In this document: piece after piece, positions 18,894-27,259 of the stretch
Position numbering within the stretch: position 1 is the first letter of the stretch
Layout: the number at the start of each line of letters is the position of its first letter
From: Candidatus Zipacnadum vermilionense
Lineage (GTDB): Bacteria > Armatimonadota > Zipacnadia > Zipacnadales > Zipacnadaceae
Reading direction: 5' to 3'
Length of the DNA stretch: 38,033 nt
Assembly (NCBI GenBank): GCA_029821755.1
Contig: JALGSV010000032.1
Coordinates: forward strand, 1 to 38,033
The notes under the pieces: model-generated
What the model saw: the letters and a program-made list of their open reading frames with translations, nothing else
Told to the model about the DNA's origin: nothing
The model's database searches: none
Translations under genes and position numbers: made by a program

Positions 18894-20398
18894 GCATACG
18901 AGTGGCCGTCCCTCAATTGCTCGGCGGTTGCGCCTTTAGGCCGCCGAGGCCGAGTGCCCGGCGGTTAGACGATAGGTTACCCAGCGATGCAGGCGAAAAG
19001 CCCACAAAATAAGCGCAGTGGCGGGCGGTTGCGGCCCCTGGTGGCCGCCCTCGCTGCCTGCCCCGGCCCCCGCCTGGATCAGTTTGCGCAAGTTGTGCCC
19101 GATGCAGGTCAGCGACCACTCCGCCTGCGCCCCACTTGTGCCTCGCAACAGGAACCGGCGCAGGCCCCAGTTGTGCTTGAAGCGGCCGAAAACCGGTTCC
19201 ACAATCTGCTTGCGCTGAGCGTACATCGCCTGCCCCGCCTCGCTGGCCATCCGACGCTCCAGCCGCCCCCGCGCCGAGTCGGCCAGCGGTACATGCACTT
19301 CCTTCTTCCCGCACCGGGCCCGGCAGGCCGCAGCCTGCGGACAGCTCCGGCACTGGTGGGTCCGATAGATTTGCCGGCCCTCCCGCACCCGACAGGGGCG
19401 CAGCCACTGGCCGGCCGGACAGCGGTAGGCCCCCGCGGCCTCCACCCACTCCAACTCGGCGGCGCCGCTGGCCCGGCGCGGCAGGTACAACCGCGTTCCG
19501 GTCGCCTCCAGCCGGGCTACATCCACCTCGGTCAGGTACCCGCCGTCGGCGCTCACGGCTTGCGGCGGCTGCCCGCAGTTGTCCTGCACTTGCTGGGCCA
19601 GCGGCCCCAGCAGCCCCTGGTCCGCCGGTTCGGTCCGCACCTGTTGCGCCACGATCACCGGGTGGTCGGCGTCCACCGCGAGCTGAGCGTTGTAGGCCGG
19701 GATGAGGCCCTCGCTGCTGTGCATGAAGCCGGCTTCCTCCGTCGCCGCGGCGGGCATAGAGGCGGGCTCCCCGGGCGGCTCCTCGGGCAAATCGCCGTCG
19801 GCTACTTTCGCCTCGGCCAGCGCCTGGCGCAACTCGGCCAGCGCCGAGGCCAGCCCCGCTTTGCTGCGGTTGGCCCGCAGCTTGGTGCCGTCGATCGCGA
19901 CGTGCGCGAGGCTCACCAACCCCGCCGCCTGGCACAGGCCGACGGTCTGCTCGAACAAGCTATCGAAGTCAGCGGCATGGCGCTGGCGGAAGCGGCACAA
20001 GGTGCGAAAGTCCGGCCGCAGGCCGTGGGCCAGGAACTTGAAAGCGTCATCGCGCTGACAGGCCCGGTCTAGCTGTCGACTGCTGCGCAGGCCCAGGCAG
20101 CAGCCATAGACCCAGACTTTGAACAGCACGCGCGGCGGGAAGGCCGGGTGGCCGACTCACGCATAAGCGGCGTCCAGGGCGGCAAAGTCCAACTGGTCGA
20201 CGGCGGCGTCGAACGCCAGTAACTCGGGGGCGGCGACGACGACCTGGCGTAAGCTGAAATACGCCATTTGATACTGGTCCCGGTCGGGCAGATCGAAGAA
20301 GCGTCCGTCACTGATCATGCCCTCTATTTCGCCAGCCACCGCCGCGTACCCTGTTAGAACCAGGCCAAGGGCCGAATTGTGGGACGACCACTACATGC
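18894..20398 (-). mobile_element. IS1182-like insertion sequence
   Basis: About 1.5 kb bounded by imperfect terminal inverted repeats. The left end 18894-18925 (GCATACGAGTGGCCGTCCC...) aligns with the reverse complement of 20371-20398 (GCATGTAGTGGTCGTCCCA...), sharing GCAT, AGTGG, CGTCCC, CAATT and CGGC in order. It encloses one transposase frame on the minus strand. I see no clear target-site duplication; the flanks are G- or C-rich on both sides. Confidence 0.8.
18936..20318 (-). pseudogene. IS1182-like DDE transposase, interrupted by an in-frame TGA
   Basis: The transposase frame runs from about 20318 (ATG before ISDGRFFDLPD; a GTG at 20339 is also in frame) to 18936. An N-terminal DUF772-like helix-turn-helix half is followed by a DDE catalytic core with Asp in AIDGTKLRAN, Asp in SADGGYLTEVD, and Glu in QIVEPVFGRFKHNWGLRR. 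A Cys-rich insert (CRSCPQAAACRARC) is typical of the family. At 20159-20157 a TGA interrupts the same frame, between DFAALDAAYA and VGHPAFPPRVLFKVW; homologous elements usually have a small residue there, so a GGA-to-TGA change fits. Translation could only resume at a later start (20129), which would lack the N-terminus. The element is therefore probably inactive on its own. Confidence 0.82.
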
Positions 20399-24399: not shown

Positions 24400-24960
24400 A
24401 TGCCGACCGTTACGACCCTTCTCTTCGATAAGCCAGGCCCGGACAACACCGAGGCGACCCTCCAGGCGGTTCTCTCCCGTGCCCAGACTTTGGGGATCAG
24501 CCAGTTCCTCGTCGCCTCTTCCACCGGACGCACGGCCCTCCGTGCCGCCGAGGTCCTGGGGCCGCAGGGCCGGGTCGTTGCGGTCACTCACTCCGCAGCG
24601 CACTGGGGGCAATGGACCGCGCCTGACCCGGACCTGCTCGCCCGCACTCGCGCCCGGGGCGTCACCGTCCTGACCTGCACCCACGCCTTCGGCGGCCTGA
24701 ACTTCCTGCTGGAGAAGCAAGGCGATCTTCCCCCGACGCGCGTCATGACCTACACCCTGTTCACTTTTTGCCAGGGGATGAAGGTCTGCGTAGAGTGCGC
24801 CCTGATGGCCGCCGACGCGGGGCTGCTGGACATGGAGCAGGAGGTCCTGTGCGTCGCGGGTACGGAGGCCGGGGCGGATACGGCGGTGGTGCTCAGAGCG
24901 GCCTACGGCAACCGCGCGTTTGACCTGAGGGTAAGGGAGATCATCGCGAAGCCGAGGTAA
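24400..24960 (+). CDS. Pyruvate kinase C-terminal-domain-like protein 2
   Basis: A 186-residue paralogue of the preceding gene product. Shared blocks include TLLFDKPGPDNTEATLQAVLSRAQTLGI, ASSTGRTALRAAEVLG, CQGMKVCVECALMAADAGLLDMEQEVL, and the identical end REIIAKPR. The middle (about residues 65-110) differs most, with AAHWGQWTAPDPDLL here against ARSVYVGPDPDLV, so ligand specificity may have diverged. No clear ribosome binding site is seen before its ATG. Confidence 0.8.
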   Translation: MPTVTTLLFDKPGPDNTEATLQAVLSRAQTLGISQFLVASSTGRTALRAAEVLGPQGRVVAVTHSAAHWGQWTAPDPDLLARTRARGVTVLTCTHAFGGLNFLLEKQGDLPPTRVMTYTLFTFCQGMKVCVECALMAADAGLLDMEQEVLCVAGTEAGADTAVVLRAAYGNRAFDLRVREIIAKPR

Positions 24961-25105: not shown

Positions 25106-25807
25106 TTACCAACTAGAGGGCTTGGAGAATGAACCGTTCTTGTCAGAGATGGTCGGGGGGAACTCGGAGTTGACTATCATCCAAGTGGGAATGTCGCGGA
25201 TATATGTGGCCACTCTATCCAATTGCCTGGTCCTATTCTCGGGATTCCTGACCTTCTTGACCCTGTGCGGTCTGCAGACATGGACTGGTTTGCCTACATC
25301 CTGCACCACCAGGCGAATGGCTTCGGCTAGATCAGTGTCGCCGGACACGACAAGGGCAAGCTCAAAGGTGCGAGTTGGATCGGTTTGGTGTGCGTCGTGC
25401 ACTAAGTGCGCGGCGAGATTCACATCTGAACCCTTCTCTTCTGAGCGCATGACGCGAACCATTTCTGGCTTCATGCCCACGACGTTATCTCCCGATGCCT
25501 GCTGTGCCTCCAGGCCAAGCACGGATGACTCAGTAGGCATCCATTTCGCCCAACGCGCGAACTTGCCTTCGATGCGTTCGACGATCCCGAGGGTGTCAAG
25601 TGCCCGCCAATAGGTGCGTTGCCGATTTCGTTGGTCGGGGTCATCCGTCCTTCTCTCTACGAGCGCCGGGAAGTACTTGACGCGCTCGATGGTGTCGTCA
25701 GGGCGGAGCTGCTGGCTGAGGGCTCTGAGGTCTATCCATTTGCACTCGGTCCGTTTGGCCGCACCATGATAGAAGTTAAAGCCGTCAACGTAGACCCAAC
25801 AACGCAT
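25106..25807 (-). CDS. NYN-domain (LabA/DUF88-type) predicted ribonuclease
   Basis: A 233-residue protein of the NYN family, PIN-like metal-dependent nucleases thought to process RNA in the cytoplasm. The acidic active-site residues are all visible: Asp8 in YVDGFNFYHG, Asp128 in EEKGSDVNLAAH, and Asp157/Asp159 in VVSGDTDLAEAI. The ATG at 25807 has GGGAGGG 5-7 bp upstream. A promoter with near-consensus boxes lies about 100 bp upstream, and between them is a hairpin followed by six U residues that ends just 8 nt before the Shine-Dalgarno sequence. Expression may therefore be controlled by attenuation. It stands alone. Related solitary genes are often in phage-defence or stress settings. Confidence 0.88.
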   Translation of the reverse strand: MRCWVYVDGFNFYHGAAKRTECKWIDLRALSQQLRPDDTIERVKYFPALVERRTDDPDQRNRQRTYWRALDTLGIVERIEGKFARWAKWMPTESSVLGLEAQQASGDNVVGMKPEMVRVMRSEEKGSDVNLAAHLVHDAHQTDPTRTFELALVVSGDTDLAEAIRLVVQDVGKPVHVCRPHRVKKVRNPENRTRQLDRVATYIRDIPTWMIVNSEFPPTISDKNGSFSKPSSW

Positions 25808-25821
25808 CGGCTTCCCTCCCG

Positions 25822-25852
25822 AAAAAAGCAGGCCACCTCTTGCGAGGTGGCC
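25822..25852 (-). terminator. Terminator/attenuator in the NYN gene leader
   Basis: On the minus strand: GGCCACCTC (25852-25844), loop GCAA, GAGGTGGCC (25839-25831), then TGC and six T. This is a textbook intrinsic terminator, yet it lies inside the leader of the NYN gene, 15-20 nt before the start codon. A second stem, CCCAGGC/GCCTGGG, precedes it. The arrangement suits transcription attenuation or a riboregulator. Confidence 0.75.
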
Positions 25853-25896
25853 CACGGCCCAGGCCGCAATGCCTGGGGCTGGTTTTATGTATGGTT

Positions 25897-25925
25897 ATCA
25901 TACACAGGTGTGACACGGAAGTCAA
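25897..25925 (-). promoter_or_regulatory. Sigma-70 promoter of the NYN gene
   Basis: On the minus strand: TTGACT (25925-25920), 17-bp spacer, TATGAT (25902-25897). The predicted start near 25890 leaves a leader of about 80 nt containing the terminator-like hairpin. Confidence 0.78.
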
Positions 25926-26101: not shown

Positions 26102-26130
26102 TTGACATCCTCCCTCCCCCGGCGTAAAGT
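26102..26130 (+). promoter_or_regulatory. Sigma-70 promoter of ilvC
   Basis: TTGACA at 26102-26107, 17-bp spacer, TAAAGT at 26125-26130. The start near 26137 would give a leader of about 125 nt. Confidence 0.6.
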
Positions 26131-26142
26131 AATCTCTCAACT

Positions 26143-26168
26143 GGACGCCGCTGTGCGTCCGGGGTTTT
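26143..26168 (+). promoter_or_regulatory. Terminator-like hairpin in the ilvC leader
   Basis: GGACGC, loop CGCTGT, GCGTCC, then GGGGTTTTG. The 6-bp GC stem with a trailing U-run sits just after the predicted transcription start and about 90 nt before the ilvC Shine-Dalgarno sequence. It could be an attenuator. No Ile/Val/Leu-rich leader peptide or T-box sequence is visible. Confidence 0.45.

Positions 26169-26260: not shown

Positions 26261-27259
<999 letters not shown>

Follow-up and report, generated by a model that had tools for sequence, protein, structure and literature searches.

In the window, a 38,033-nt stretch of DNA from Candidatus Zipacnadum vermilionense, a short structured RNA element stands directly in front of a gene for a NYN-domain nuclease. 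We consider it likely that the two form a two-component mobile module, in which a structured RNA of about 65-75 nt is the antitoxin and a NYN/PIN-like RNase of the HEC-09 family is the toxin. The RNA element has a conserved structure, is coupled to the NYN family in either orientation and is repeated in some plasmids. The nuclease keeps its active-site residues, and the distribution of the pair is patchy and mobile.

All parts of the module in the window lie on the minus strand. The promoter consists of a -35 hexamer TTGACT (25920-25925) and a -10 hexamer TATGAT (25897-25902) with a 17-nt spacer, which jointly match the consensus at 10 of 12 positions. A small RNA of about 68 nt (25822-25890) is predicted from this promoter, with its start placed 7 nt past the -10 hexamer and its end at the U-run. 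It contains a single-stranded 5' flank, ACCAGC (25878-25883), which is the version present here of the A-N-C-C-C element that is conserved on the 5' side of stem 1; stem-loop 1, CCCAGGC-ATTGCG-GCCTGGG (25858-25877), which was found by folding and covaries in homologues; stem-loop 2, an intrinsic terminator of 12 pairs, GTGGGCCACCTC-GCAA-GAGGTGGCCTGC (25828-25855); and a U6 tract (T6 in the DNA; 25822-25827). These are followed by a Shine-Dalgarno sequence, GGGAGGG (25814-25820), and by the nuclease gene (25106-25807; 233 aa), which starts with ATG at 25807, is coding from 25109 to 25807 and has its stop codon at 25106-25108. A GTG at 25855, given as the start in the naive ORF list, was rejected in favor of this ATG. 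The leader folds at -49 kcal/mol, compared with -37.3 kcal/mol in shuffles (z = -3.4), and the RNA (L002:2208-2278, minus strand) is matched with 28.9 bits and E = 6.6e-07 by a covariance model built from sequences that do not include it. The neighboring upstream gene is ilvC, which lies on the plus strand in divergent orientation, and therefore no transcript from the ilvC side reaches its end at the hairpin. The sequence-only reading had recognized a near-consensus promoter, two stems of which the second is followed by U6, the close spacing of U6, Shine-Dalgarno sequence and ATG, and a site at which no gene ends, and on all of these points it was right.

Its call of a NYN nuclease was likewise confirmed by a Pfam NYN match of 26.3 bits. 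The PADLOC profile HEC-09 matches the window protein with E = 1e-31, which places it in that family, and also matches 28 of 28 members of one alignment of relatives (A1) and 5 of 5 of another (A2), 33 scanned in all; phrog_7929 is matched by 30 of 30 members of a further alignment (A8). The protein has a NYN/PIN-like fold and a conserved acidic active site: D8, N11, D128, D157 and D159 are invariant in the alignment of 28 relatives, the predicted structure has a pLDDT of 93.4, and its clearest matches in the PDB are VPA0982 and the NYN domains of mouse and human MARF1. Fold and acidic active site are shared with MARF1 and the LabA-like NYN nucleases, but the window family is a separate subfamily with a C-terminal KPxxW. 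To our knowledge, no adjacent RNA is known for the eukaryotic or LabA-like members.

The two-hairpin leader is conserved in homologues. When 96 non-redundant homologues (below 80% identity) were scored by a fixed fold-based rule, 65 had such a leader within 60 nt of the start. Positives were far fewer among the controls: 7 of the 130 other genes taken from these loci and 10 of the 96 dinucleotide-shuffled sequences. The fold-based detector was used because a strict hairpin detector, which found 49 of 96, missed many members. The common order is promoter, A-N-CCC, a stem-loop of variable sequence, a short linker, the terminator hairpin and the gene; thus, in the window and most homologues the RNA is upstream and co-directional with an intrinsic terminator between it and the gene, and seven relatives depart from this order. 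Of 76 forward leaders detected by a fold-based rule, 38 are directly preceded by a sigma-70 match of 9/12 or better. Several homologues that are negative by the rule have a variant leader, either an internal-loop stem, CCCYGGAGCUUCGGCGAAGGG (L008, L009, L011, L023 and L024), or long imperfect stems in the enterobacterial clade. Nucleases without a detectable RNA are few: covariance-model and fold searches of the loci found no RNA near the NYN gene for L039, L047, L091 and L174, which are among the divergent ones. In a Phaeobacter plasmid (L016), a near-perfect inverted repeat of 22 pairs lies upstream of the RNA at about 2820-2870.

Stem 1 is maintained as a structure. In 13 sequences aligned by MAFFT only, and thus free of structural information (A5), 33 cells showed changes on both sides with pairing kept, compared with 10.6 after shuffling (0 of 500 shuffles reached this value), and the signal was destroyed when the partners were slid. 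In 38 RNAs, 120 both-side cells were counted against 36.5 in shuffles (0/500), with both-side changes at all seven pairs of the stem; this alignment was made by the covariance model and is biased towards the structure fitted. The key columns of the A-N-C-C-C element are A in 32 and C in 35 of 38 RNAs (A7). A broad MAFFT alignment (A4) gave no pairs in RNAalifold because MAFFT had shifted the register of stem 1 between lineages, and it was replaced by the register-consistent A5 and the covariance model. The long-stem enterobacterial RNAs (A9) were left out of the covariation scoring because their alignment mixes two registers.

The placement of the RNA bears on the first alternative, that the RNA is only a cis attenuator or autoregulatory leader, whose terminator limits transcription of the nuclease and which the RNase cuts or binds. 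The mostly co-directional position of the RNA, with a terminator right before the gene, fits such a role, and RNases controlling their own leaders are known. However, an attenuator would always lie in cis and upstream of its gene, and in at least seven relatives the RNA is on the opposite strand to the NYN gene. Searches with the covariance models located it there in relatives without a leader: in Paenarthrobacter (L017, E 8e-11) and a mycophage (L021, E 5e-6), it lies downstream of the gene in convergent orientation; in L055 (E 9e-7), L083 and L109, it is upstream and divergent; and in Rhizobium (L042), it is divergent at about 1 kb from the NYN gene. In L123, the opposite-strand RNA was detected by folding. 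Most of these RNAs are preceded by a TTGAC-type promoter of their own and followed by a terminator-like hairpin. An RNA on the opposite strand cannot attenuate the nuclease mRNA, and any effect that it has on the nuclease must therefore be exerted in trans. In addition, folds of the leaders gave two independent hairpins only, with no antiterminator pairing among them, and both tandem copies and orphan RNAs occur. We therefore regard attenuation alone as unlikely, although attenuation may be one of two roles of the RNA element. The sequence-only reading had proposed that the hairpin attenuates the nuclease mRNA, to be checked by looking for covarying stems in the leaders of homologues and to be abandoned if the hairpin were not conserved. 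The hairpin is conserved, stem 1 covaries and the terminator is indeed inside the leader, but the claim is too narrow for a covarying stem 1, tandem copies, RNAs without a gene and RNAs on the opposite strand.

The copies of the RNA vary in number and in company. On 4.6-kb Escherichia coli plasmids, the RNA unit, which consists of ACAACCC and a hairpin, is present as four tandem copies in L020 and as five in both L180 and L181, at a spacing of 29-33 nt, and L076 has two complete stem1-stem2 units. When the covariance model (R2) was run on 291 genomes of the phylum, 11 of its 16 matches were beside NYN genes, 3 were beside NYN remnants (L187, L194 and L197), a count of broken genes that errors in metagenome-assembled genomes (MAGs) may inflate, and 2 were orphans without NYN (L188 and L196). 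The orphan L188, in genome G017, keeps the promoter and both hairpins, and no NYN gene was found in that genome. The orphans could be relics of recent gene loss. RNAs that outlast their nucleases, together with the small number of nucleases that lack a detectable RNA, are what one would expect of a pair in which the nuclease is the dangerous partner, although the numbers are small and come from MAGs. Separately, genome G041 (L005, L011/L012, L013/L197) has a full NYN gene with RNA, a second, diverged copy that was matched in two pieces, and a third that breaks off after about 20 codons but retains an intact RNA.

A second alternative is that the RNA serves the nuclease as a cofactor or guide, either activating it or directing it to the RNA or DNA of invaders, in the manner of RNA-dependent defense. 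Stable coupling, placement that allows action in trans and the standing of HEC-09 as a candidate defense family would suit this role. However, stem 1 is kept in shape and not in sequence, the loops are mostly short, no variable spacer-like part is present and the tandem units in E. coli plasmids are near-identical. A guide or cofactor also predicts orphan nucleases about as frequent as orphan RNAs, and the scan of the phylum tends in the opposite direction, in small numbers. This role thus appears rather improbable. It is very improbable that the roles are reversed, with the RNA as the harmful or targeted component and the NYN RNase as an antidote that degrades it; RNase antidotes exist, GhoS being an example, but RNAs with intact promoters are retained at sites where the nuclease is missing or broken. 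Finally, terminators are common between genes, but it is hardly credible that the element is a plain terminator, or an insulator against transcription from upstream, with a second hairpin present by chance; this reading was rejected, given the enrichment over control genes and shuffles, the covariation of stem 1 and the near-exclusive linkage to NYN in the 291 genomes.

The module has a mobile distribution, with small plasmids, prophages and patchy presence. NYN relatives occur in 25 of the 291 genomes of the phylum, in one of three within the genus, in 357 plasmid records (those fetched include Proteobacteria, Leptospira, Actinobacteria and an acidobacterium), in a mycobacterial prophage and in more than 100 IMG/VR loci; a named relative belongs to Candidatus Zipacnadia. 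Single-sequence scans of genome and viral contigs gave few or no relatives, and alignment queries gave many. Nuclease family and RNA are found together in at least five bacterial phyla, in plasmids and in phages. In a genus mate of the window (G001), the interval between PK_C and ilvC has another ORF and no NYN gene.

Several further observations concern the surroundings of the module and its distant relatives. The adjoining PK_C-like gene (24400-24960) has two neighboring copies in G001 (L205:2785-4021). The ilvC gene (26261-27259, plus strand) has its own promoter, TTGACA-17-TAAAGT, and a leader hairpin, CTGGACGCCGCTGTGCGTCCGG, followed by GGTTTT (26102-26162, plus strand); this hairpin looks unconserved because the nucleotide match to G001 and G002 starts only downstream of it. 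A DDE transposase gene (DUF772 and DDE_Tnp_1_6) lies at 18936-20129 on the minus strand. A diverged NYN relative (about 25% identity), which is accompanied by a longer stem-1 RNA, is present in L051 and about 200 Klebsiella/Escherichia plasmid records; it occurs widely on Klebsiella plasmids, including many large ones. On a Cupriavidus plasmid (L050:1471-2412), the NYN protein is longer at its C-terminus and is annotated as an antitoxin Xre/MbcA/ParS toxin-binding domain protein, which is a possible link to type II modules.

We propose that the module works as follows. The strong promoter would make the short RNA, and because of the terminator few of the transcripts would extend into the nuclease gene, which would keep the RNA in excess of the protein. 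The RNA would bind the nuclease by shape and, as its antitoxin, hold it inactive. If the short-lived RNA disappeared, as it might after loss of the plasmid or during a phage infection that stops transcription, the RNase would be freed, and its presumed toxicity, which the transcribed RNA would otherwise neutralize, could serve phage defense or plasmid maintenance. The earlier guess that RNase and RNA interact fits this scheme, which presumes binding. The reading as antitoxin and toxin is favored because the anatomy equals that of ToxIN and AbiF-RCd22. Known type III toxins have folds other than NYN, and this was counted against it, as were the nucleases near which no RNA was found and the chance that the orphan RNAs are relics. 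A role in defense is also weakened by one set of Pseudomonas in which the presence of HEC-09 went with phage susceptibility and not with resistance (PMC12447246).

The order of promoter, structured RNA (with repeats in some members), Rho-independent terminator and RNase gene is shared with the type III systems ToxIN, CptIN and TenpIN, which likewise reside on plasmids and phages. In contrast to them, the nuclease is NYN/PIN-like (Pfam NYN; VPA0982 and MARF1 in the PDB) and does not have the ToxN/AbiQ endoribonuclease fold, the RNA may be on the opposite strand or downstream, and neutralization is putative here. Tandem repeats as in type III antitoxin RNAs are absent from the window, which has one unit, and from most relatives; they are present in L020, L180 and L181, where the variation in copy number resembles type III antitoxin arrays. 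We do not claim a type III system proper, because the nuclease has a different fold, most members lack repeats and the order of the genes is not constant. AbiF-RCd22 resembles the module in that a short structured RNA and a terminator stand ahead of a prophage-borne nuclease gene and the shape of the stem outweighs its sequence; in that system, most transcripts end at the terminator without reaching the toxin gene, and the protein is neutralized by the short RNA in cis and in trans (PMC12373285). However, AbiF is a HEPN toxin paired with the abiF RNA (RF03085), and the window protein shows no HEPN/Abi_2 domain by Pfam or structure match. RF03085 has no match in the window or 15 loci at the gathering threshold, and relaxing the cut-off to E <= 1 for the window leader and 12 loci gave none either. 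More broadly, no Rfam family passes the threshold at the window leader and 15 loci, and none recurs at E <= 1 in the leader and 12 loci; a hit to BjrC68 on the window leader (19.4 bits against a cut-off of 39) did not recur in the 12 other loci and was taken as chance.

A full-text search, with preprints and most subscription papers outside its scope, found no description of NYN paired with an RNA antitoxin, type III, toxin-antitoxin or abortive infection, and a single paper that names HEC-09. HEC-09 (phrog_7929) of PADLOC is the same protein family as the window nuclease, but its entry is a candidate protein only, and an RNA partner is undescribed in the sources found. On balance, we lean towards the view that the HEC-09 NYN nuclease and its hairpin RNA are an undescribed class of RNA-neutralized toxin or defense system, which would be independent of ToxIN and AbiF, with gene orders foreign to type III, and is represented in five or more phyla and on numerous enterobacterial plasmids. 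If so, NYN would be the third unrelated nuclease fold, after ToxN and HEPN/AbiF, under the control of a small structured RNA, and RNA neutralization of RNases would be a recurrent design rather than two special cases. HEC-09, a defense-database entry of putative function, would also gain a testable mechanism. A covariance model for the NYN-linked RNA is supplied, and the E. coli plasmid modules with four to five repeats are directly testable in laboratory E. coli. Moreover, because the RNA is free to lie at different places relative to the gene, an antitoxin effect in trans can be told apart here from attenuation of transcription; in type III loci, the two are confounded.
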